The notes beneath the pieces were generated by a model. The model had not been told where the DNA came from, did no database searches, and was given only the letters and a program-made list of their open reading frames with translations. From Gammaproteobacteria bacterium (GTDB taxonomy: Bacteria > Pseudomonadota > Gammaproteobacteria > SpSt-1174): a stretch of 44,051 bases of DNA. Location: positions 1-44,051 of the forward strand of contig JARRKE010000028.1 in NCBI GenBank assembly GCA_037388465.1. The letters are read 5' to 3'. Below are positions 17,073 to 28,689 of the stretch, piece by piece (position 1 is the first letter of the stretch; every line of letters starts with the position of its first letter). The position numbers and the translations under genes are program-made.

Positions 17073-19493
17073 TTACTCTCCGCTCGCCTGCAATGCGAGT
17101 GCGCGGGGACGGAACTGCAGCGTGTAGAACATCTGCATGTAGCGGCGGGTCTCGTCGCGTTCCAGGTCGGTCACGTAGTGCCAGAAACCGTATACGCGCG
17201 CCAGGGTCATCAGGCGTTCGGCATAGTTGCGCCAGGTATAACGATCGGCGATACGGGCCAGGGATCGCCGTGAAATCTGGTCCCAATAACCGGGTTCGTG
17301 CTGGCAGCGCTTGAAGAATTCGGCCATGCGGGCGGCCGCCTCGTCACCGTGGTTGGGGTCGATGTGAAAACCGGATACGCCGTCACGGATGATTTCCAGT
17401 GGTCCGCCGAACCGGGTGGCGAAGGTGGGTAATCCACTCGACATCGCTTCAATGACCGTCAGGCCGAAGGCCTCGAATCGTGCCGGCTGCACGAAGGCAC
17501 CCTTGCGGTCGGCGATGGTGCGGTACAGCTCACCCGAGAATCCCTTGTCCAGGTGCATACCCAGCCAGCGGACCTGACCATCGAGCTGGTGATGATCCAT
17601 GATCGCATGCATGCGTTCGATCTCGGTGCGCTCCTCGTCATCCTGGGAACGCGACGGATCGATATGGCCGGAGATCACCAGCAGGTTCGCCCTGCTGCGC
17701 AGTTCCTCGTTCTCGCCGTACCACTCCACCAGGCCGGTGATGTTCTTGATCCAGTCCAGGCGCGCCATGGTGAACAGCAGAGGCTTGTCAGGTTCCGCAA
17801 GGGCACCGCGGCGGTCCTCGCCGGTATCCTGACCGTCGAGCAGCGCGGCGATGTCGTCGGCCAGATGGGTCAGGCGATGCTCCGACTCGGTATAGGGGAA
17901 ATAGACCTCAGGATCGGCACCGGGTGAGACGATGTTGAACTTGGGATCGTACACATCGGTGCCGTGCACCACGCGGTAAAGATCCGGCATGGTGAAGGTC
18001 ATGTAGCTTTCATACTGGCCGACGGTATGCTCGGTGCCCGCGATTTCCTGATAGGTGCTGGTGATGATGAAGTCCGCCGTGTTCATGGCGATGAGGTCGG
18101 CGGTGAACTGGCAGGAGAAGTGATAGTTCGATTCGCTTTCGCGCCAGTACAGGTCGGACAGCAGATACTTGGTCTTTTCCAGCGCGTGGGCGATGTTGCA
18201 CTGGGTGACGCCGAGTTTTTGTGCCATCAGCGAGCCGACCAGGTTACCGTCCGAGTAATTGCCGATGATGAGATCGGGGCGCCCACCCAGCTCGCTCACC
18301 ATTTCATGCTGCGCATCCGAAGCGTAGCGTTCCAGATACGGCCAGACCTCGAAACGCGAGATCCAGTTTGGCAGCACATCGCCGGCCTCGTTGCGAAACG
18401 GCACGCGCAGGATGGCCGCGCTGCGGGTGCCGGCGATGGGTTCCAGGCGCTGGTCGCAGGTCGTGCCCTCGGCCTCGGGTATCAGGCGGGTCAGTACCAG
18501 GATGCGCGGCTCGATCTCCAGGCCCTGCGCCTCCAGGCGTTCGCGCATTTCACGCTCCAGGGCGCGGACCTGATCCAGGATGTAGACCACCTGGCCGCCG
18601 GTGTCCGGGCGGCCCAGCACGTTCGATTGCCCGAACCAGCCATGTATGGAAAGGATCGCGACCGAGAAGATCATCGGTACGCGCGCCAGGAAGTCCTCCA
18701 GGTTTTTGGGGGAGGGCGCCTCCAGGATGTCCAGCAGCAGCTGCATGGTCTCCAGGGCCTGACCGACGGTGCGCCCCCAGCCGGGTTCGAACCCGAGCTG
18801 GCGCAGCCGCTGCATCTCGTCCTCCAGCACGGTGTCCGATTCGAGATGGCGCAGCCTGACGATTGCCGCGCGCAATGCCTCGCGCAGCGCGGGCACGTCG
18901 CTGATGGAGTCGCTGAGCATCAGGGTCTGGTCGCGATAGCGATGCAGGCGCAAAAAGCCCAGCAGACGGTCGTTGCCGATGCCGCCTTCCTCGAACAGCC
19001 GGCTGGACAGGCGCCGGTTGAGGAACTCCACGCCGCGGCCGATGGAATCGGCCTCCTTGAGCTTGAATATCTCCCGCGAGAAGGGACCGAGGTCCACCTC
19101 CAACTCCCAGTCGGAGGGGGCGGGGTTGCTGATCAGGGATTCCTTGAAGAGCAGGTAGATCGAGCAGTCGACCTCTTCCGGGGTCATGGCCTCGAAATGA
19201 ATCCGCACGTAAAACCATTCGCCGATGCGCGGGCGCAGGGCGAAGTGAATCCAGCCGTGGTTGACCGCGGCCTCCTGACACCAGCTGACCACGGTGGCCA
19301 GCGGGCTGTTCCACAAATCCAGCTCCGGCATGCCGTCCGCGAGTTCGGCAAAGGCATCCTCCACGTCGCTGCGCAGCAAAAAGGCGCGGCCGATCGCTTT
19401 GAAGTGATGGAGCACCTGATGGACGGCGCTGCGGTTTTCCTCCATGTAGGCGGAGAGTTCGGCGAGTAGCGATGAGCGTGAGGCTGGCGTCAT
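17073..19493 (-). CDS. Sucrose synthase (GT4 glycosyltransferase)
   Basis: This 806-aa protein has the standard sucrose synthase length. It catalyses the reversible reaction sucrose + NDP = NDP-glucose + fructose in the cytoplasm. Seen: the N-terminal regulatory region typical of the family, [17 protein letters not shown] in the first Rossmann domain, and the retaining-transferase E-x7-E motif (Glu674 and Glu682 in [13 protein letters not shown]) in the second. ATG 19493 gives a normal N-terminus ([13 protein letters not shown]); a GTG at 19625 would add 44 unconserved residues. Bacterial sucrose synthases are known in Nitrosomonas, cyanobacteria and sulfur oxidisers, where sucrose is an osmolyte or carbon store. 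No sucrose-phosphate synthase is in the window. The gene is divergent from leuA. Confidence 0.92.
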
Positions 19494-19761
19494 GATCAAA
19501 TCCCGGGTGACTGGTTTCTGCTCCGCACAGATGTGTTTGTCAGGATGGTTGGCTGTCGCTATGTTCTCAAAAAAATGCTTCGACTTCTTATCAGACCGGA
19601 CAGCGGTTTGGTCATTTCGGTTCACCTTACGCCTGACGGTGGGGCTGGCGCCACCGCTGCGGGACGTTTCCGGCCGTGCTCGTATCGCACGCTTCCCGCG
19701 CGCGGGGCGGGGATTGCGTTAAAATCGCTCGTACGGCGCAAGGCGCCGAAGCGGAGGAGTA
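19494..19761. promoter_or_regulatory. Divergent intergenic region between sucrose synthase and leuA
   Basis: This region must hold the promoters of both genes. On the plus strand a -10-like TAAAAT lies at 19720-19725 without a good -35, and a strong ribosome site GGAGGAG (about 19753-19759) precedes leuA. On the minus strand no convincing promoter was recognised. A run of seven A residues lies near 19567-19573. Confidence 0.35.
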
Positions 19762-21184
19762 ATGAACAGCGAACATTTGATCATCTTCGACACGACCCTG
19801 CGTGACGGAGAGCAGAGCCCCGGCGGAGAGCGTGCAGGACAGCACCGTCTGTGGCCTGGCGCGGGCGCTGGACCGGGACATCGACCGGGCCGGCGAGGCG
19901 CTGGCCGGTGCCAAATCCGCGCGTATCCACACCTTCATCGCCACCTCGCCCATCCATATGGAGCGCAAGCTGCGCATGTCGCCCGACCAGGTGCTGGAGC
20001 AGGCCGTGAAGGCGGTGACCCGGGCGCGCAGGTATACGGACAATGTGGAGTTTTCCCCGGAAGACGCGGGCCGCTCCGAGACCGATTTCCTGTGCCGCAT
20101 CATCGAGGCGGTCATCGACGCCGGCGCCACCACCATCAATATCCCGGATACCGTGGGCTACAACATCCCGGGCCAGTTCGGCGAACTGATTCGAACTTTG
20201 CTCGAGCGGGTTCCCAACTCGGACAAGGCGGTGTTTTCCGTGCACTGCCACAACGACCTGGGCCTGGCCGTGGCCAATTCCCTCTCCGCGGTCATGAACG
20301 GCGCGCGCCAGGTGGAGTGCACCATCAACGGCCTGGGCGAGCGTGCCGGCAACGCCTCGCTGGAAGAGATCGTGATGGCGGTGCGCACCCGCCAGGACGT
20401 GTTCCCCTGCGACACGCGGCTGGATACCACCCAGATCGTGCCGGCCTCGCGTCTGGTCTCGGGCATCACCGGCTTTCCGGTGCAGCCCAACAAGGCCATC
20501 GTCGGCGCGAACGCCTTTGCCCACGAGTCCGGCATTCACCAGGACGGCGTGCTCAAGGCGCGCGAGACCTACGAGATCATGCGCGCCCAGGACGTCGGCT
20601 GGACCGACAACCGCATCGTGCTGGGCAAGCATTCGGGGCGCAATGCCTTCAAGACGCGGCTCACCGATCTGGGTTTCGAGTTCCCCAGTGAAGAGGAACT
20701 CAACGCCGCCTTCGCGCGTTTCAAGGAACTGGCGGACAAGAAGCACGAGATCTACGACGAGGACCTGCAGGCGCTGGTTTCCGAGGCCACCGCCGAACTG
20801 GAGAACGAGGTCTACAAGCTGGTCTCCATGCGGGTCTGCTCCGAGACCGGCGAGATGCCGGTCGCCACGGTCACCCTCAACGTTGAAGGTGAGGAGACCA
20901 GCGGTGAAGCGCCCGGCGGCGGTCCGGTGGATGCGACCTTCCGGGCTATCGAGGCCATTGTGCAGAGCGGGGCGACGTTGCAGCTTTACTCGGTGAACAA
21001 CATCACCAGCGGCACCGACGCGCAGGGTGAAGTGACCGTGCGCCTGGAAAAGGCCGGCCGTATCGTCAACGGGCAGGGCGCCGATACCGATATCGTCATC
21101 GCCTCCGCGCGTTCCTACCTCAACGCCCTCAACAAGCTGTCGGCGGGCGCCGAACGGGCCCATCCCCAGCTGGAGCACGTCTAG
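19762..21184 (+). pseudogene. leuA: 2-Isopropylmalate synthase with internal deletion and frameshift
   Basis: LeuA joins acetyl-CoA to 2-oxoisovalerate as the first step of leucine synthesis. The N-terminus is normal ([15 protein letters not shown], residues 7-21, ending at 19824), then the frame continues as nonsense. Family sequence resumes in the +1 frame at [14 protein letters not shown] (from 19832) and runs to the end at 21184, including [54 protein letters not shown] and a C-terminal regulatory domain. By comparison with family members about 40 residues are missing, the part holding the second barrel strand (VDVIEAGFP region). The missing length must be 2 modulo 3, for example 122 or 125 bases. 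GGCG at about 19821-19826 could be the microhomology of the junction. Either a real loss or an assembly error; downstream sequence shows no decay. Confidence 0.85.
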
Positions 21185-21292
21185 AGCCTGTAGCCCCGGG
21201 TGCTCGCCCGGAGGCGATGTCTCTCCCGAACCCGGCGGCGCATCCCTGCACCGCCGATTCAAACCATCGGATGAGCAACCGGCTCGAGCGGC

Positions 21293-21316
21293 CGTCCGCA
21301 TGAGCGCGGACGTTTC
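21293..21316 (+). terminator. Probable terminator after leuA
   Basis: A perfect 7-bp stem, CGTCCGC (21293-21299) and GCGGACG (21306-21312), is followed by TTTCGTCGTC, a weak T-run. It lies between leuA and the Mo operon. Confidence 0.5.
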
Positions 21317-21350
21317 GTCGTCAATAGGGCTATAAGCAGTCTGGCTGCTT

Positions 21351-21386
21351 CCATATATTAGTACCCCGTGAATATCTAATACATGG
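21351..21386 (+). promoter_or_regulatory. Long dyad overlapping the ribosome site of the Mo operon
   Basis: CCATATATTAG (21351-21361) and CTAATACATGG (21376-21386) are 11-base inverted arms with one mismatch and a 14-base spacer. The right arm runs into the ribosome site GGAGGAGG, which precedes ATG 21400. It may be an operator for a dimeric regulator, or an mRNA hairpin that affects translation of the first gene. Confidence 0.5.
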
Positions 21387-21399
21387 AGGAGGTCGAGTC

Positions 21400-24174
21400 A
21401 TGGCTTGGCAGTTTCCGCGAATGACCCGCCGCAGTTTTCTTAAAGGCAGCGGCGCGAGTGTGTTAGGAATGACCCTGTTTCGCCCGGAGTGGATCAAGCT
21501 ATCGGGCCCGGCCAAGAATGAGGTTTCCGACTGGGGCCAGACCTGGAAGACGCGCGAGTCCTATTCCATCTGCAATTACTGCTCTTCCTTCTGCTCGGTG
21601 CGCGCGACGGTGGAGGAAAGCAACGGTCACGAGCGCATCGTCAAGCTTGGCGGCAATCCACGCTCGACCCTCAACGGCGACAAGCTTTGTGCCCGCGGCC
21701 AGTCGGGCTTCCGCCAGGTCTACAGTGTCGATCGCATCAAGACGCCGTTGATACGTGTGCCCGGCTCCAAGCGTGGCGAATGGGCCTTCCGCAGCGCCAG
21801 CTGGGACGAGGCCTACGCCTACATCGCGAAAAAAGCCAAATCCATCAAGCCTTATGAATGGACCGTTTACGGCGGCTGGTCCACCTGTTCCTTCTACATT
21901 CCGGAAACCTTCTGCTTCACCCTGGCGAACGACATCCCCAACCTGATCACCTCGCCGACGCAGAACTGCGTCTTCAACGGCCACCTGGGCACCAACTCGC
22001 TGACCGGCAACTACGTGGTGCATGGCGAGGTGATCGAGGACTACGGCAATTCCGACTACATCATCGCCTGCGTCGGCAATGCCTCCATCGGCGGTGTGTC
22101 CACCTGCCGCGCCGTGCGATTCGCCGAGGCCAAGGAGAAACGCACCAAGGTCGTCGTGCTCGACCCGCGTGCCTCGGAAACCGCGAGCAAGGCCGACGAG
22201 TGGCTGCAGGTCCGGCCCGGCAGCGATCTGGCCTTCATGCTGGCGATGCTGCGTGAGCTGATGCACGCCGGGCATTACCACGATACCTTCGTGCGCATAC
22301 ACAGCAATCTGTCGTTTCTGTGTTACCGCGACGAGCACGGTGCGTGGCAGCTCTACCGCTCGGCCAAGGGCGAACCGGCTGTGATCGACGGCGGCAGCGG
22401 AAGCGTGCATTTCCTGCCCGCTTTTTCCAATCGCAACGATACCGACGTCTCGGGACAGGCCGTGCACCCGGCGCTGCAGGCGCCGGCCGGATTCAAGTTG
22501 GACGGCAAAGAACTGGTGACGGTGTTCCAGGCGCAGCTGGCGGGCCTGGAGACCTATACGCCGGAGTGGGCCGCCAGGATCACGGGCATCCCGGCGGGGA
22601 CGATCCGCCGCATCGCCGCCGAGTTCGGCGCCGCCAAGCGCCCGCTGCTGCAGCCCGGCTGGTCGGGTGCGCGCTACGGCAATATGCAGATGCTGCGCCG
22701 TACCCAGGGTCTGATCCAGGGGCTGGTCGGCGGCATCGACCGTCCCGGCGGCTGGCTGTTCGGGGCGGAGTGGCGCGGGCAGGTGGCGTACATGCAGGAC
22801 CATATCGGCAAGCCCGGCTTCCCGCCCATGGGCCGGGCGGGCATGCCCTTCGTCGAATGGACGGGGGCATTGTTCTCCGATCCGAAGAATTTCAGTCACG
22901 GCTTTCCGGCCTGGTCGGTGGTGCACCGTGACAGCGTGGACAAGCTCAGCCCTCACTGGGCGGCCATCCCGGTTTCCACGGATGTCGGCTTCCTGCCCGC
23001 GGTAAAGGGCGAGCTCAGCTACCGGGGCAAGCCTTATCAGGCCAAGGCCATTCTGCTCAACGGCACCAACCCCATGCGCGATGCGCGGGAAAAGGTCTGG
23101 CGCGAGGCGCTGTCCGACTCCGCGCTCGAACTGGTGGTGGTGATGGATGTCATGGCCTCCGACACGGCGGCCTACGCGGACGTCATTCTGCCCGAGAGCA
23201 GTTATCTGGAGCGCGACGCACCGTCCATTTTCGGCAACGGCGTGAATCCGGACGACATGCTCATCACGCGCAACAAGGTGATCGAGCCGCTGTTCGATAC
23301 GCATACGCTGCCGGATATTTTCCTCAAGCTCACCGGCGTCATCAGCGGCGACGAGCGCAATTATCCGCGTACGCTTGAACGCCTCGCCGGCGTGCCGGCC
23401 AAGCGACTGATGGCGCTGACCGAGGAGTACCGCAAGCAGAAGGTGCGCGATCCGTTCAATCAGGCGCTGCGCCGCATGCGCTTCGAGGCCAAGGCCGAGG
23501 AACTGCATGTCTCGCCCGAGCACCTGGAGCAGGTGTTGCGCGAGCAGGGCGTCTACCCGGTGGCCGAGGCGCAGGAGCTGCTGAACAGGGACGCCATGCC
23601 CTGGAAGCGGCCTCTGCCCACGCCCAGCGGCCGTGCCGAATTCTTCAGCAACCTGTACGCGGGCCTGCGCGACGGATTCGAGCTGTACAACAATCCGTTC
23701 TTCGACGTGCTGGCCACCTACATCCCGCCGCATGAGCGTCCGGACAAGCCGCTGGAGGCGCCATTGGAGGATGACGAGTTCTTCTTCACCTTCGGTATGG
23801 TGCCAACGGTTTCGCATTGTTCGCCCAACAACAACTTCCTGCCGCTGGTCGGCATCAATGCCTTCCGCGGTGACGTGTATCACGGCGTGTGGATGCATCC
23901 CGACCGCGCCAGGCGCCTGGGTATCAGCCAGGGACAGAAGATCGAACTGCGCAATGCGGTATCGGGCGAGCGTACCGAGGCCAGTGCCTACCTGACGCGG
24001 CTGACCCGCGAGGACACCTTGTTTATGTACAGCGGGTTCGGCGCCAAGACATCGGCGCTGCGTTACGCGCGCGGCGTGGGTACGGCCCTGAACGACATCA
24101 CGGGCGACCTGACCGAGCCGGTCAGCGGCGGCACCAGCAATCAGGAATACACCGTGCGCGTGCGCGCACTGTGA
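21400..24174 (+). CDS. Periplasmic molybdopterin oxidoreductase, catalytic subunit (PsrA/PhsA/TtrA/Arx-type)
   Basis: This 924-aa protein belongs to the DMSO-reductase superfamily. A twin-arginine signal (TRRSFLKGSG, Arg10-Arg11) sends the folded enzyme to the periplasm. A [4Fe-4S] site follows: Cys58, Cys61, Cys65 and Cys97 (ICNYCSSFC and GDKLCARG). Cys190, in SPTQNC, sits where the Mo-ligating cysteine of polysulfide, thiosulfate, tetrathionate and arsenate reductases lies. The bis-MGD domains and the C-terminal TFGMVPTVSHCSPNNN region are intact. With the B and C subunits next door it forms a quinone-linked complex. The substrate is not resolved: sulfur compounds fit the genome context, arsenic or selenium oxyanions are possible. 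It differs from SoeA (sulfite dehydrogenase), which is cytoplasmic and has no Tat signal. Confidence 0.85.
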   Translation: MAWQFPRMTRRSFLKGSGASVLGMTLFRPEWIKLSGPAKNEVSDWGQTWKTRESYSICNYCSSFCSVRATVEESNGHERIVKLGGNPRSTLNGDKLCARGQSGFRQVYSVDRIKTPLIRVPGSKRGEWAFRSASWDEAYAYIAKKAKSIKPYEWTVYGGWSTCSFYIPETFCFTLANDIPNLITSPTQNCVFNGHLGTNSLTGNYVVHGEVIEDYGNSDYIIACVGNASIGGVSTCRAVRFAEAKEKRTKVVVLDPRASETASKADEWLQVRPGSDLAFMLAMLRELMHAGHYHDTFVRIHSNLSFLCYRDEHGAWQLYRSAKGEPAVIDGGSGSVHFLPAFSNRNDTDVSGQAVHPALQAPAGFKLDGKELVTVFQAQLAGLETYTPEWAARITGIPAGTIRRIAAEFGAAKRPLLQPGWSGARYGNMQMLRRTQGLIQGLVGGIDRPGGWLFGAEWRGQVAYMQDHIGKPGFPPMGRAGMPFVEWTGALFSDPKNFSHGFPAWSVVHRDSVDKLSPHWAAIPVSTDVGFLPAVKGELSYRGKPYQAKAILLNGTNPMRDAREKVWREALSDSALELVVVMDVMASDTAAYADVILPESSYLERDAPSIFGNGVNPDDMLITRNKVIEPLFDTHTLPDIFLKLTGVISGDERNYPRTLERLAGVPAKRLMALTEEYRKQKVRDPFNQALRRMRFEAKAEELHVSPEHLEQVLREQGVYPVAEAQELLNRDAMPWKRPLPTPSGRAEFFSNLYAGLRDGFELYNNPFFDVLATYIPPHERPDKPLEAPLEDDEFFFTFGMVPTVSHCSPNNNFLPLVGINAFRGDVYHGVWMHPDRARRLGISQGQKIELRNAVSGERTEASAYLTRLTREDTLFMYSGFGAKTSALRYARGVGTALNDITGDLTEPVSGGTSNQEYTVRVRAL

Positions 24175-24184
24175 GGAGCGAGTC

Positions 24185-24814
24185 ATGGCACATTACGCAA
24201 TGGTGATCAACGTGGATACCTGTGTGGGCTGCAACGCCTGCATGGCGGCCTGCTCGCAGGCCAACCAGACGCCGGTATGGGATTCGAGCAAGTTCCGCAC
24301 CTATGTCCATGACGAGGAGTTCGAAAAGGACGGACGCTGGGTGCGGCAGTTCTTCCCGCGCCTGTGCAACCAGTGCGACAACCCGCCCTGCGTGACGGTC
24401 TGCCCGACCGGCGCGACCTGGAAAGAGGAGAGCGGACCGGTGCGGGTGGATCCCGAAATCTGCATGGGCTGCGAGGCCTGCGCCATGGCCTGCCCGTACG
24501 ACGCCCGTTATCCGATCGACCGCGGGGACGTTGCCCACGCCAAGGCCTACTACGGCGAGGCATTTCTCAAGCGCACGCATCCGGCCGTGGACAAGTGCGA
24601 TTTCTGCTGGGACCGCCTGCAACAGGGGCTGGAACCGGCCTGCGTGGAAACCTGCGTGGCGCATTCGCGCATTTTCGGTGACCTGGACAACCCCGATGAC
24701 CTGGTCAGCAGGATCGTCGCCAGCGGCAAGGCCAAGACCCTGCTGCCCGAGATCGGCACGGGGCCCAACGTCTTCTATATCGACAAGCTTCCGGAGGGAT
24801 TGGCAAATGAATGA
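24185..24814 (+). CDS. Four-cluster ferredoxin electron-transfer subunit of the Mo complex
   Basis: This 209-aa protein carries sixteen cysteines in four groups: Cys13/16/19/23, Cys61/64/69/73, Cys93/96/99/103 and Cys138/141/153/157, enough for four [4Fe-4S] clusters as in PsrB, TtrB and DmsB. It passes electrons between the Mo subunit and the membrane subunit. It has no signal peptide and would be exported with the catalytic subunit through its Tat signal. GAGGAG precedes ATG 24185, 10 bases after the catalytic gene. Its end overlaps the start of the membrane subunit gene by 8 bases. Confidence 0.92.
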   Translation: MAHYAMVINVDTCVGCNACMAACSQANQTPVWDSSKFRTYVHDEEFEKDGRWVRQFFPRLCNQCDNPPCVTVCPTGATWKEESGPVRVDPEICMGCEACAMACPYDARYPIDRGDVAHAKAYYGEAFLKRTHPAVDKCDFCWDRLQQGLEPACVETCVAHSRIFGDLDNPDDLVSRIVASGKAKTLLPEIGTGPNVFYIDKLPEGLANE

Positions 24815-25829
24815 AGCGATTCATTTGGTCGGTACGCTCACCACGCAGGACCGCTGGGTCGGGCTGGTGATCTGGTATCTGTTCCTCGGCGGCCTGGGCG
24901 CCGCGCTGGTCGCCATTTCCGTTTTTGCGCACCGCTATGCCAGGGCTTCCACGCCGCTGACCTTATGGGGCGTACTCTCCGGTGAAGCGGCCCTGGCCGT
25001 CGGTTCGCTGCTGCTGCTGTTCCACCTGCTGGATCCGCTTCATGTCTGGCGCATCCTGCTGCCGTGGAACGTGTTCGTGAATCCCACGGCATGGATCACC
25101 TGGGGAACGCAGTTCCTGATCTGGGCCATGGTGTTCGGGGTTCTGTATATCTGGCCCATGCTGTGGAAGGCGCAAGGCTTGCGGCGTATTCCGGTGTTGA
25201 ACTGGTGGTTCGGCATCGGCTGGGTACGCTGGAGTGCGGAAATCTGCGAGCGCTTCGCCACCCTGCTGGCCTGGCTGTCCATCCTCATGTCGATTGCCGT
25301 GGCGGTCTACACCGGCCTGCTGCTGCGTTCCTTCCCGGCCGTGGCGCTGTGGCATAACCCGGTCATCCCGCTGCTGTTCACGGTGTCGGCGCTGTCGACC
25401 GGCCTGGCCTATCTGCTGCTGGTGCAGTATGCCGTGCTGCGCGAACATGGACCGCTGGCGCGCGCCTACGAGCGTTTCGACGTGCTGCTGATCGCCGTCG
25501 AAATGGCGTTGATCGGCTACCTGCTCTATGCGGTGCTTCCGGGAAGCGAATCCGGACGCGCGAGTTATGCCTTGCTCATGGACAACATGGGCTGGGTCGT
25601 CGGCTTCCTGTTGTTCGGCCTGCTGGTGCCGCTGTTGCTGGAGATCAAGGGCAGCCTGCGGGCCTGGAACTCACCGGTGCCGGTCATGGCGGCCGCGGTG
25701 CTGGTGCTGGTCGGCGGTTATCTGCTGCGCCATTATTTTCTTAACGCCGGTGTCTATTATTTCCCCTGGGCCAACGCGCACCACCTGGGCGTGCTGGGTT
25801 CGGATGTGATCGCGCATGTCATCCACTGA
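24807..25829 (+). CDS. NrfD/PsrC-like membrane anchor and quinone-binding subunit
   Basis: This 340-aa hydrophobic protein has about eight to nine membrane segments, beginning WVGLVIWYLFLGGLGAALVA, the usual NrfD start (a Trp- and Gly-rich first helix). It anchors the A and B subunits and exchanges electrons with the quinone pool. No haem-binding histidine pairs stand out, as expected for the NrfD group. ATG 24807 overlaps the end of the ferredoxin gene, and the stop overlaps the next gene by 14 bases, so the whole set is translationally coupled. Confidence 0.9.
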   Translation: MNEAIHLVGTLTTQDRWVGLVIWYLFLGGLGAALVAISVFAHRYARASTPLTLWGVLSGEAALAVGSLLLLFHLLDPLHVWRILLPWNVFVNPTAWITWGTQFLIWAMVFGVLYIWPMLWKAQGLRRIPVLNWWFGIGWVRWSAEICERFATLLAWLSILMSIAVAVYTGLLLRSFPAVALWHNPVIPLLFTVSALSTGLAYLLLVQYAVLREHGPLARAYERFDVLLIAVEMALIGYLLYAVLPGSESGRASYALLMDNMGWVVGFLLFGLLVPLLLEIKGSLRAWNSPVPVMAAAVLVLVGGYLLRHYFLNAGVYYFPWANAHHLGVLGSDVIAHVIH

Positions 25830-26379
25830 AGCCACGCCCACTCGCGCGGACGCCGCTGAGCTGCGGTTCTACGCGGCCTGCCTGGCCGAACCGACCGCCG
25901 AGGCGTTGCCCGCTTTGCGCGAAGCCGCAGGTTGGCAGCCCTGGCTCGCCGAGCCCCTGGCCGAACTGGCGGCCACCGACCTGGAGGTCTGGCAGGGCGA
26001 ACACGCGCGGCTGTTCGTGGTGCCGGGTCTGGCGCCGCCGTTCGCCTCCGCCTACCGCGAGGGCATTCTCAACGGCGCCGCTGCGAGTGCCGCCGAGGCG
26101 TATTACGCGGATCAGGGATTTGCGCTGAGCGAGGGACTGCCCGGTGATTATCTCGGCAGTCTGCTCGAATGCGAGGCCTGGCTGGTCGAGGCCGGACAGG
26201 CGCAGGAGGCGGCGACTTTCCGGCAGACCTTCCTCGCCGACTGGCTGGGACGCTTTGCCGGCCGGCTGCGTGAACATGCCCGCCTCGCTTTCTACCGTCG
26301 TCTGGGTGAGCGTCTGGCGGATGCACATGACGTCGTGCTGTCGCTCGGGAAGCGGCAGGTCGGGATGGAAACGCATTGA
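25816..26379 (+). CDS. TorD/DmsD-family maturation chaperone
   Basis: This 187-aa, all-helical protein resembles the TorD/DmsD/NarJ family of redox-enzyme maturation proteins, which bind the Tat signal and hold the apo-Mo subunit until cofactor insertion. The family-like region is WQGEHARLFVVPGLAPPFASAYREG (here EHARLFVVPG and PPFASAYR), with SEGLPGDYLGSLLECEAWL afterwards. It overlaps the membrane subunit gene by 14 bases. The partner is almost certainly the Tat-exported Mo protein at 21400. Confidence 0.8.
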   Translation: MSSTEATPTRADAAELRFYAACLAEPTAEALPALREAAGWQPWLAEPLAELAATDLEVWQGEHARLFVVPGLAPPFASAYREGILNGAAASAAEAYYADQGFALSEGLPGDYLGSLLECEAWLVEAGQAQEAATFRQTFLADWLGRFAGRLREHARLAFYRRLGERLADAHDVVLSLGKRQVGMETH

Positions 26380-26395
26380 AGACCCGGAGATATCC

Positions 26396-26767
26396 ATGGA
26401 AACGATGAAAATCGCCGTTGCCAGCCAGAATCGCCGTGAAGTGACCGGCCATGCCGGACGCTGCCGCAAGTTCTGGATCTATACGATGGTGGATGGCGAA
26501 GTGCGGGGACGCGAACTGCTGGAACTACCCAAGGAGCGGTCTTTTCATGAACACGATGTCCGCCTGCCGCATCCGCTCGACGGTATGCGGGCGTTGATTA
26601 CCGGCGGCATGGGCAGTGGGCTGGCACGCAAGCTGGCGGCGCGCGGCATCGAAGCGGTTGCGACGCCGGCGCGCGATCCCGACCGGGCAGTGGCGGACTG
26701 GCTGGCCGGCAGCCTCGAACGCCTTGCCGTTGAAGAGGAGCATGCGCATGGTGGCGGCCATGCTTGA
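26396..26767 (+). CDS. NifX/NifB-type iron-molybdenum-cofactor-domain protein
   Basis: This 123-aa protein matches the small dinitrogenase FeMo-cofactor-biosynthesis domain (NifX/NafY type): MKIAVASQNRREVTGHAGRCRKFWIY at the start, then ALITGGMGSGLARKLAARGIEAV in the second half. A His-rich tail (EEEHAHGGGHA) may bind metal. No nitrogenase gene is in the window. Its place in the Mo oxidoreductase operon (16 bases after the TorD-like gene, GGAGA ribosome site) suggests a role in handling Mo or Fe-S cofactor for that enzyme (inference). Confidence 0.75.
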   Translation: METMKIAVASQNRREVTGHAGRCRKFWIYTMVDGEVRGRELLELPKERSFHEHDVRLPHPLDGMRALITGGMGSGLARKLAARGIEAVATPARDPDRAVADWLAGSLERLAVEEEHAHGGGHA

Positions 26768-26821
26768 GCAACGTTCTGGGATGTCGTGCTGCGCCGGCAT
26801 CATAATCCGAGGCCGTTGCGT

Positions 26822-27367
26822 ATGAGCTGGCAGTTGCCTGTTGGGGAATCCGCCGCCCAGCGTCTCAATGATCTGCTCGTCGCGTTGCGGGATGTCGGCG
26901 AGGCCGAGATTGCCGGCCGTTCCTATGCAAATCCTGCCGTCGGCTACGCCTGGCGCGGCCTGGCGTCGCAGGCGGACTGGGACGTTGCCTATGTGCTGAC
27001 GCCGTGGATGCTGATGCGGGTATACCTGCCGCTGATGCCGCCCGCCATCGAACTGCCGTCGGCCTGGACGGCGCAGGCGCGTGCTGGACAGCCGTTTCAG
27101 CTCATCGGCCCGTCGCTAGATGTTGCGGTGGGGGAGGAACTGCACCGCCTGCATCTGCAATGGCTGCCTGATTACGGACACTTTCTGTTGCAGCCCCTGA
27201 TGCAGGGGCTGAATCGCTATGCCGACGATACGGCCGTGTGGGACGCATGGGACGGCGTACTGGCCGCACGCGACCGCAGCCGCCAGGAAAAGCTGGACGA
27301 GCTGCAGCGGCGGGACGCGGAGACCACCCGGCGCGATTTTTTGCGGCGCATGATCGGGGCGGGGTGA
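26822..27367 (+). CDS. HybE/HupJ-like chaperone with a C-terminal twin-arginine-like motif
   Basis: This 181-aa protein resembles the hydrogenase assembly chaperone family HybE/HupJ in its middle: VLTPWMLMRVYLPLMP (about 61-76) and the region around GEELHRLHLQWLPDYGHFLLQPLMQG. The C-terminus ends TTRRDFLRRMIGAG, which looks like a twin-arginine motif in an odd position. No hydrogenase gene is visible, so it probably serves the Mo complex. ATG 26822 is chosen from the conserved start; the ribosome site is weak and the gap to the NifX-like gene is 54 bases. The family call is moderate. Confidence 0.6.
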   Translation: MSWQLPVGESAAQRLNDLLVALRDVGEAEIAGRSYANPAVGYAWRGLASQADWDVAYVLTPWMLMRVYLPLMPPAIELPSAWTAQARAGQPFQLIGPSLDVAVGEELHRLHLQWLPDYGHFLLQPLMQGLNRYADDTAVWDAWDGVLAARDRSRQEKLDELQRRDAETTRRDFLRRMIGAG

Positions 27368-27450
27368 AACGCCACCTCGATCCTGCATCGCCGGTCTGAC
27401 ACGTTACAATTGCCATCCGAGGAGGGTTTCGTCCACAGCAGGAGGATGGC

Positions 27451-28155
27451 GTGAGCGACGTCAAACGGCAGTATCTCAAGGCCATGGACATCCCGGTGTG
27501 GGTGCGGCGTACCGCGGCGCCGGTCCGGGACGTCGAGCCGGCGTCCCCGGTTGAGGATGCGGCCGCGCCCGTCAAAGCGACCGAGTCGGTGGTCGAATTT
27601 TCCGATCAGGACTGGGAAGGCCTGCGCGAGGCCGTGGCCGGCTGCACCCGCTGCGCGCTCAGCGAAAGCCGCACCCAGACCGTGTTCGGCGTGGGCGACC
27701 GCCAGGCCTCGCTGATGGTGATCGGCGAGGCCCCGGGCGCGGAAGAGGACCGCAGGGGCGAGCCTTTCGTCGGCCGGGCGGGCAAGCTGCTGGACAACAT
27801 GCTGCTGGCCATCGGCCTGAAACGCGAGCAGGTGTTCATCGCCAATATCCTCAAGTGCCGCCCGCCCAACAACCGCGATCCCAAACCCGAAGAGGTGGCG
27901 GCCTGTCACGGGTATCTGGCGAAGCAGATCGAATGGGTGGCGCCCAAGGCCATTCTGCTGGTGGGTCGCATCGCTGCGCAGAGCCTGTTCGAGACCGACG
28001 CCCCCATCGGTCGGCTGCGGGGCGACGTACGGTCTATCAACGGGGTTCCGGCCGTGGCGACCTACCATCCGGCCTATCTGCTCCGGCAGCCGCGAGAAAA
28101 ACGCAAGGCTTGGGCGGATCTCAAGCGGATTCGTGCCTTGCTGCAGCGTGACTGA
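27451..28155 (+). CDS. Uracil-DNA glycosylase, family 4 (Fe-S type)
   Basis: This 234-aa DNA repair enzyme removes uracil from DNA. Four cysteines for the [4Fe-4S] cluster are visible (Cys65, Cys68, Cys136, Cys152). The active-site motif GEAPGAEED starts at 92 and the DNA-binding motif HPAYLLR is at 206-212. The first 45 residues are a Pro/Ala/Val-rich extension seen in proteobacterial members. The start is GTG 27451, with AGGAGG 5 bases before it; the nearby ATG (27446) runs straight into a stop. A -10-like TACAAT lies at 27405-27410. rimI follows in the same direction. Confidence 0.9.
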
Positions 28156-28215
28156 GTGCTTGTTCTGCCGCTCAGCATCACTACAATCTGCTCAAGGCCA
28201 TTTTCTCTTCGCTAC

Positions 28216-28689
28216 ATGAGTGCAGTCGTCCAAGATCGAAAGCCGGGTATCCGGCCCATGCAACCTGCGGATCTCGATGCCGTCATGGCCATCGAGAAAC
28301 GCGCCTATCACTTTCCGTGGACCCGCGGCATCTTTCAGGACTGCCTGCGGGTCGGCTACTCGTGCTGGATTTATGCACAGGAAGAGCAGGTGCTGGGTTA
28401 TGCGGTCATGTCCATGGCCGTCGGCGAGGGGCATATCCTGAACCTGTGCATCGCCCCGGACTATCAGGGGCGCGGCCACGGGCGGCGCCTGCTGCGCGCA
28501 CTGCTGGCGCAGGCCGACGCGCACGGGGTGGGCGAAATCTACCTGGAGGCCCGCCCCTCCAATATTTCGGCCCTGCGCCTCTACCTCAGCGAGGGCTTCA
28601 ACGAGATCGGCAGCCGGCGCGACTACTATCCGGCCCTGACCGGGCGGGAGGACGCGGTCGTGCTGGCGCGCACCATGGCGTCCGATTAG
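28216..28689 (+). CDS. rimI: Ribosomal protein S18 alanine N-acetyltransferase
   Basis: This 157-aa GNAT-fold enzyme acetylates the N-terminal alanine of ribosomal protein S18. Seen: IRPMQPADLDAVMAIEKRAY at the start, PWTRGIFQDCL, the acetyl-CoA pyrophosphate loop QGRGHGRRLL (84-93) and EARPSNISALRLYLSEGFNEIG at the end, all standard for RimI. ATG 28216 gives the normal length; an upstream start would add about 20 unconserved residues. The order uracil-DNA glycosylase-rimI-prfC is ordinary in gammaproteobacteria. Confidence 0.9.
   Translation: MSAVVQDRKPGIRPMQPADLDAVMAIEKRAYHFPWTRGIFQDCLRVGYSCWIYAQEEQVLGYAVMSMAVGEGHILNLCIAPDYQGRGHGRRLLRALLAQADAHGVGEIYLEARPSNISALRLYLSEGFNEIGSRRDYYPALTGREDAVVLARTMASD

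Follow-up and report, generated by a model that had tools for sequence, protein, structure and literature searches.

A HybE subfamily linked to Sre-type molybdoenzyme operons and its probable role in their assembly

Introduction

Why should an operon for a membrane-anchored molybdopterin oxidoreductase encode, besides a TorD-family chaperone, both a relative of the hydrogenase chaperone HybE and a small protein with a NifX domain? The question is raised by six ORFs (A, B, C, D, X and E) that lie on the same strand (+) at 21400–27367 of the window, by which we mean the whole stretch of 44,051 nt analysed here, from a gammaproteobacterial draft genome (2.79 Mb, 98.85% complete). A first-pass annotation, made from the sequence alone, had described six genes in the same direction with TorD-like, HybE-like and NifX-like products, which was confirmed by the ORFs and by Pfam, and had read them as signs of either an expanded maturation route or an enzyme with unusual cofactor needs. 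We have examined which of these genes belong together and how E is related to the HybE proteins of hydrogenases. Our results indicate that D and E form a conserved pair beside a Sre/Psr-type enzyme and are probably its two dedicated assembly chaperones, and that X is a local insertion.

Methods

One genome per species was scanned for relatives of A; 411 were found and 80 loci kept. Presence of E was counted in the 58 of these 80 loci in which A is full-length and followed by 3.5 kb or more of sequence, the other 22 (A shorter than 800 aa or less than 3.5 kb downstream) being left out. For the hydrogenase and PF11939 searches 50 of the 80 loci were chosen and L059 was excluded, leaving 49 genomes, of which 44 carry E at the sre locus and five do not; the Thiomargarita MAG locus L096 was counted among the former although its E lies upstream of A in the opposite orientation. 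Alignment A3 (45 sequences) comprised the window and 44 of the 50 loci with a sre-linked E, leaving out L026 and L030 (truncated), L055 (degenerate motif) and L023, L073 and L090 (near-copies). A quick tree of A was used only to view the spread of E, and the wrong-frame sequence L037, on an absurd branch, was disregarded.

Results

The operon and its catalytic complex

The features of the operon are given in Table 1. The frames of B and C overlap, as do those of C and D; X begins 17 nt past D, with GGAG preceding its ATG, and E starts about 54 nt past X. No promoter was found in a scan of 21150–27700, where terminator-like sites numbered five against 4.6 expected by chance.

Table 1. Coordinates of the operon and of the C-terminal motif of E in the window
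Feature	Position	Strand	Description
A	21400..24174	+	Catalytic subunit of molybdopterin type, SreA/PsrA-like; 924 aa, with Tat signal RRSFLKG
B	24185..24814	+	Four-cluster [4Fe-4S] subunit, 16 Cys, without own signal
C	24807..25829	+	NrfD-type membrane anchor; start taken from frame, Pfam run on 24810–25829
D	25816..26379	+	TorD/NarJ-family chaperone
X	26396..26767	+	Small protein with NifX domain (PF02579) and a short tail containing His; lies between D and E
E	26822..27367	+	HybE-like, sre-linked subfamily, 181 aa from ATG 26822; listed ORF starts at GTG 26786
Tat-like C-terminal motif TRRDFL of E	27326..27343	+	Residues 169–174; twin arginines are residues 170–171

A matched the Pfam families Molybdopterin, Molydop_binding and Molybdop_Fe4S4, B the 4Fe-4S dicluster family and C NrfD (108 bits). 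The Pfam TAT signal scored 19.6 bits in A, below the cut-off of 22.7; the Tat motif RRSFLK is present, and RRx[FLM] occurs in 74 of 75 A relatives. The best NCBIfam match of A was PhsA (315.9 bits, against a cut-off of 694 for the curated PhsA equivalog NF012032) and its best PDB match was Thermus PsrA (2VPW, 189 bits). All 76 of 76 sequences, that of the window included, have cysteines 58, 61, 65, 97 and 190 of A; Cys190, the presumed Mo ligand, aligns with a Cys of 2VPW. With a MopB catalytic subunit bearing 4Fe-4S cysteines, this presumed Mo-ligand cysteine and a Tat motif, together with a four-cluster FeS subunit and an NrfD anchor, A-B-C has the composition of a Sre/Psr-type CISM enzyme; the Tat motif of A sets it apart from SoeABC, in which the catalytic subunit lacks a Tat signal. 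The suggestion of unusual cofactor needs was not borne out: an unusual Mo ligand in A was rejected because the four N-terminal cluster cysteines and Cys190 are kept throughout, and B has the 16 Cys to be expected in an ordinary enzyme of Psr type.

Elsewhere in the source genome (L002, G000:C17) there is a Soe-like catalytic subunit of about 964 aa without a Tat signal, plus an FeS partner; judged from sequence, two enzymes of the three-subunit plan, one cytoplasmic and the other exported, seem to coexist in this genome.

Upstream of the operon, leuA (19762–21184, +) has a disrupted 5' end, in that its ATG frame (19762) differs from the frame of its main body (19802–21184), and an internal stretch close to its N-terminus is seemingly missing, through either deletion or assembly error. 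A sucrose synthase gene (17073–19625, −; 508 bits to its first GT-B domain) adjoins leuA. The sre genes of the window stand between leuA and UDG (19762–28689), whereas in an Acidihalobacter MAG (L013:3302–11031) leuA, UDG and rimI are adjacent and sre lies about 2 kb further on, so that the operon must have moved or been inserted.

Distribution of the operon and pairing of D with E

The 80 loci include Acidithiobacillus, Allochromatium, Imhoffiella, Thiorhodococcus, Sulfuricella, Sedimenticola, Thiomargarita, Magnetococcales and Sulfurivirga, with deeper members from Chlorobiota, Bacillota, Chloroflexota and Fraserbacteria. Within its own class A is patchy, being present in five of 368 other genomes and in neither of two genomes of the same family; a plasmid search with A gave, among the matches listed, only PhsA-type proteins of less than 30% identity. 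At one locus (L017) the operon adjoins genes for a LysR-type regulator, the RuBisCO large chain and CbbQ, a neighbourhood that fits a sulfur-oxidizing autotroph.

D and E occurred together at 44 of the 58 countable loci, D alone at seven and neither at seven. All 44 are from Pseudomonadota and they make up 44 of the 53 proteobacterial loci, the other nine having no E beside ABC; the five non-proteobacterial loci (Chlorobiota, Bacillota and Fraserbacteria) all have D without E. E starts no more than 79 nt past D in 48 of 49 loci, and 234 nt past it in the remaining one (L070). In one Thiosymbion and in Allochromatium warmingii, where ABC stands alone, D and E lie elsewhere and are still adjacent, having been relocated as a pair. 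Two of the proteobacterial loci have D without E: in that of a Hyphomicrobiales member HybE was not found genome-wide, and in that of Thiospirillum E lies elsewhere in the genome, in two frames. In L096, A is split across three ORFs, and D as well as E lies upstream of it on the other strand.

On the tree of A, E is scattered among the proteobacteria and missing from the deep non-proteobacterial rows. Since the Sre of Chlorobiota, Bacillota and Fraserbacteria has D but lacks E, E is not essential to this type of enzyme, and its absence there suggests that it is a later refinement in Pseudomonadota rather than an enzymatic need.

E is distinct from the HybE of hydrogenases

D matched the Pfam family Nitrate_red_del/TorD with 54.5 bits and E matched NiFe-hyd_HybE (PF11939) with 37.4 bits (cut-off 25), a profile that also matched 43 of the 45 members of alignment A3 at E<=0.01. 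The predicted structure of E (mean pLDDT 96.1) had E. coli HybE (2KC5) as its only strong match in VIA-align (Z 8.7, rmsd 3.6, 120 residues aligned; next chain 4.3), which supports a match that Foldseek alone gave at just E 2.5e-3. By both profile and fold, E therefore belongs to the HybE superfamily. The NCBIfam model for [NiFe] hydrogenase HybE (TIGR03993) had no match in E at E<=0.01, whereas it scored 133.8 bits (cut-off 78.5) with the other HybE of the genome. That protein, which scores 150 bits where E scores 37, is encoded separately, on contig C2, as is the NiFe hydrogenase to which it belongs (787.7 bits). The claim that hydrogenase genes are lacking thus holds for the window and does not extend to the genome; as to nitrogenase, NifH was not found over its cut-off in the source genome.

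When 101 HybE proteins were placed on one tree, the 58 sre-linked sequences formed one side of a branch supported at 97/80. The other two groups, each at 100/99, were six sequences of a third kind and 37 of hydrogenase type (from the PF11939 surveys, at least 116 bits), a label given from the coordinates of the members from sre genomes; on the nine contigs compared, these lie within 1–5 kb of the gene for a NiFe large subunit, the distance in G378 being about 14 kb. The sre-linked clade is therefore separate from that of hydrogenase HybE. E is also too divergent for single-sequence patterns, and a scan of the genomes' contigs with its sequence alone found none.

PF11939 was present in 45 of the 49 sre genomes searched, and PF00374 exceeded its cut-off in 40 of them, a count that includes complex I-like matches. 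In 13 of the 44 genomes with E in the sre locus (G369, G372, G383, G394, G396, G397, G398, G401, G406, G408, G409, G410 and G412) PF00374 was absent or no better than 2.5e-21, a weak, complex I-like match, and since most of the genomes are MAGs such absence may reflect incompleteness; G391, with a short hydrogenase-like fragment, was kept outside the 13. The isolate Sulfurivirga caldicuralii, which is among them, has no PF00374 match at all.

A survey of HybE in the phylum also gave 20 lower-scoring places: seven sre-linked, eight of a 'thi' type and five with an in-frame stop. The eight (L208, L210, L212, L214, L215, L221, L222 and L223) are a third HybE subfamily, found beside ThiS–ThiG fusion genes (thiamine synthesis); the label denotes a position beside ThiS/ThiG-like ORFs, Pfam-checked in two, or membership of that type, L222 standing at a contig start with its neighbour outside the sequence. 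Six of the eight are in the 'thi' set of the tree. The matches with one in-frame stop (L216–L220), from five genomes of family f171, are possibly pseudogenes.

X is a local insertion

X matched Nitro_FeMo-Co (PF02579) with 41.6 bits. The earlier description of X as NifX-like with a His-rich tail stands as regards the domain and a short tail, HAHGGGHA, with three His, but X is no NifX equivalog (20.1 bits with TIGR02663, cut-off 112) and the MrpORP model fits it better (44 bits). It is the sole PF02579 protein of the source genome. At none of the 49 loci with D and E on one strand, the closest relative (A 76% identical) among them, does X lie between the two. Only two sre loci (L029 and L031) gave a match to X at all, in each case kilobases upstream on the other strand. 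Relatives of X occur in 25 of 368 other genomes, and the ten neighbourhoods read, with names assigned partly by eye, held SLAC1-type, AhpD-like, flavoprotein and other genes, and no recognized sre genes. X as a conserved sixth gene is thus rejected: it is a local insertion, a lineage-specific passenger or accessory. In another genome a relative of X lies about 1.2 kb from leuA (L168:5006–8142), by chance or as a trace of the arrival of X.

The survey of neighbourhoods therefore upheld conservation beside the complex for E and not for X, and of the expanded maturation route proposed at the outset the TorD–HybE half stands while the NifX half falls.

A twin-arginine motif at the C-terminus of HybE proteins

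All three HybE subfamilies found end in a Tat-like motif, S/T-R-R-x-F/L-F/L; the Tat consensus is S/TRRxFLK. Within the C-terminal 45 residues, the pattern [RK]Rx[FLMI][FLMI] is present in 36 of 37 HybE proteins of hydrogenase type, 57 of 58 complete ones of sre type and all six of thi type, against 2–4% of shuffled tails and none of 61 TorD proteins from the same loci. The stricter, Tat-like [ST]RRx[FLMI][FLMIK] is found in 27, 53 and six, respectively. R170 and R171 are among only five invariant columns of alignment A3, from which L055, reading SRWELL, is excluded, and in the predicted model of E they lie near the end of a 44-residue helix. No report of such a motif in HybE was found in a literature search thin on subscription journals.

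Discussion

The gene order, the pairing of D with E and the separate clade formed by sre-linked E, found independently of hydrogenase, point to a role for E in the assembly of the enzyme beside which it is encoded. Judged from gene content, A-B-C-D-E is a conserved five-gene unit that appears to match the genes of the SreABC 'sulfur reductase' of Acidithiobacillus and Allochromatium. In Allochromatium vinosum, genes Alvin_1317–1319 are named sreABC and SreA is periplasmic (PMC3368242); for A. ferrooxidans, a five-gene sulfur reductase cluster, AFE2177–81, is described (PMC2621215), the enzyme is said to form H2S from sulfur by reduction and to be anaerobically expressed (PMC12016491), and its role in sulfur oxidation is noted as untested (PMC6397845). 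Accounts in print are thus divided between reduction and oxidation.

We consider it probable that A-B-C is a Sre/Psr-type enzyme whose assembly is served by two chaperones of its own, D and E, the latter coming from an enzyme-specific HybE subfamily and having a HybE-like role. The complex would face the periplasm, be linked to quinone and act on sulfur or polysulfide: A, the bearer of the sole Tat signal, would carry B across, and C would anchor the complex and contact the quinone pool. According to PMC4273604, HybE binds the Tat signal of HybO, probably masking it during cofactor loading. By analogy, D most likely guards A during insertion of Mo-bisPGD, and E most likely acts as a second maturation or Tat-proofreading chaperone, holding the precursor and masking or checking its Tat signal until the second subunit has been loaded and docked, as HybE would for hydrogenase 2. 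Its partner may be A or an A-B precursor, or equally B.

It could be argued that E serves a hydrogenase that cooperates with Sre in a hydrogen:sulfur oxidoreductase supercomplex, as proposed for Aquifex and Acidianus, and is encoded with sre for that reason. Such coupling has been proposed in print (PMC2621215 and PMC11636981), the source genome does have a NiFe hydrogenase and PF00374 matches are frequent in sre genomes. We nevertheless judge a hydrogenase role for E very unlikely, given the 13 genomes that have E in the sre locus and lack a clear NiFe hydrogenase, the separate HybE, from another clade, that goes with the hydrogenases present in sre genomes, and the failure of E to match TIGR03993. 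Slightly less improbable, though still quite unlikely, is that maturation of the complex depends on TorD alone, E being a chaperone of general use that simply accompanies the operon. The non-proteobacterial Sre that do without E would agree with this, but the monophyly of sre-linked E, the closeness or overlap of the D and E genes and their joint relocation speak against it. As for X, its strand, its short distance from D, the GGAG before its ATG and its being the only PF02579 protein in a genome where NifH over the cut-off was not found would suit a working part in Sre maturation of this lineage, as a carrier of Mo or of an iron–sulfur precursor in a three-protein set. We think this unlikely, if the least so of the three alternatives, because X is missing between D and E elsewhere and in the 76% relative, and its own relatives, in the ten neighbourhoods read, sit among genes none of which was recognized as sre.

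Returning to E as a chaperone dedicated to Sre, the C-terminal motif allows a speculative extension, which we put forward as a doubtful one. In the HybE family as a whole, a mimic of the Tat motif (S/T-R-R-x-F/L-F/L, 8–25 residues from the end, at the end of a long helix) might engage a receptor for Tat signals, be it the site on TatBC or the groove in which a partner chaperone binds such signals, so that release of the masked signal would be a competition of two twin-arginine motifs, TorD and HybE providing a two-key export check in Sre. If so, this check would be a device common to molybdenum and nickel–iron enzymes. Thi-type HybE proteins, beside ThiS–ThiG where no Tat substrate is evident, run counter to a Tat role of the motif.

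E beside Sre puts an established chaperone family to a new use, specific to one clade, next to an enzyme that is itself known. HybE has been treated as the chaperone of hydrogenase 2; the monophyletic branch linked to a sulfur molybdoenzyme shows a wider use of the family, and for some molybdoenzymes a second chaperone, unrelated to the first, may be necessary. This suggests that the checking of metal enzymes before export is shared between molybdenum and hydrogen enzymes, and makes testable the general question of how chaperones judge the readiness of a Tat precursor. It also offers a handle on the expression of Sre-type complexes and corrects the annotation of the fifth sre gene as a hydrogenase protein.

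Among known systems, SreABC (AFE2177–81 and Alvin_1317–1319) is alike in having a periplasmic catalytic subunit with a Tat signal, an FeS subunit and an NrfD anchor, and the same genera are among the 80 loci; A-B-C is equated with it by genus, layout and gene number. In the accounts of sre clusters consulted the fifth gene is not described as a HybE relative, and a literature search thin on subscription journals found no HybE relative described in a sre operon. PsrABC and PhsABC (Thermus PsrA, Salmonella-type PhsA) supply the best PDB and NCBIfam matches of A, but A is longer (924 against about 760 aa), scores far under the PhsA cut-off and has a HybE-like partner. SoeABC sulfite dehydrogenase has the same three-subunit plan, whereas SoeA, according to PMC6620896, is cytoplasmic and A has a Tat signal. 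X shares the PF02579 domain, above the Pfam cut-off, with NifX- and MrpORP-type proteins, but differs from NifX in not being its equivalog and in coming from a genome where NifH was not found. Finally, E has in common with the hydrogenase chaperones HybE and HupJ the PF11939 profile, the fold of 2KC5 and the C-terminal twin-arginine motif, but it belongs to a separate clade without a TIGR03993 match and is linked to a molybdoenzyme.
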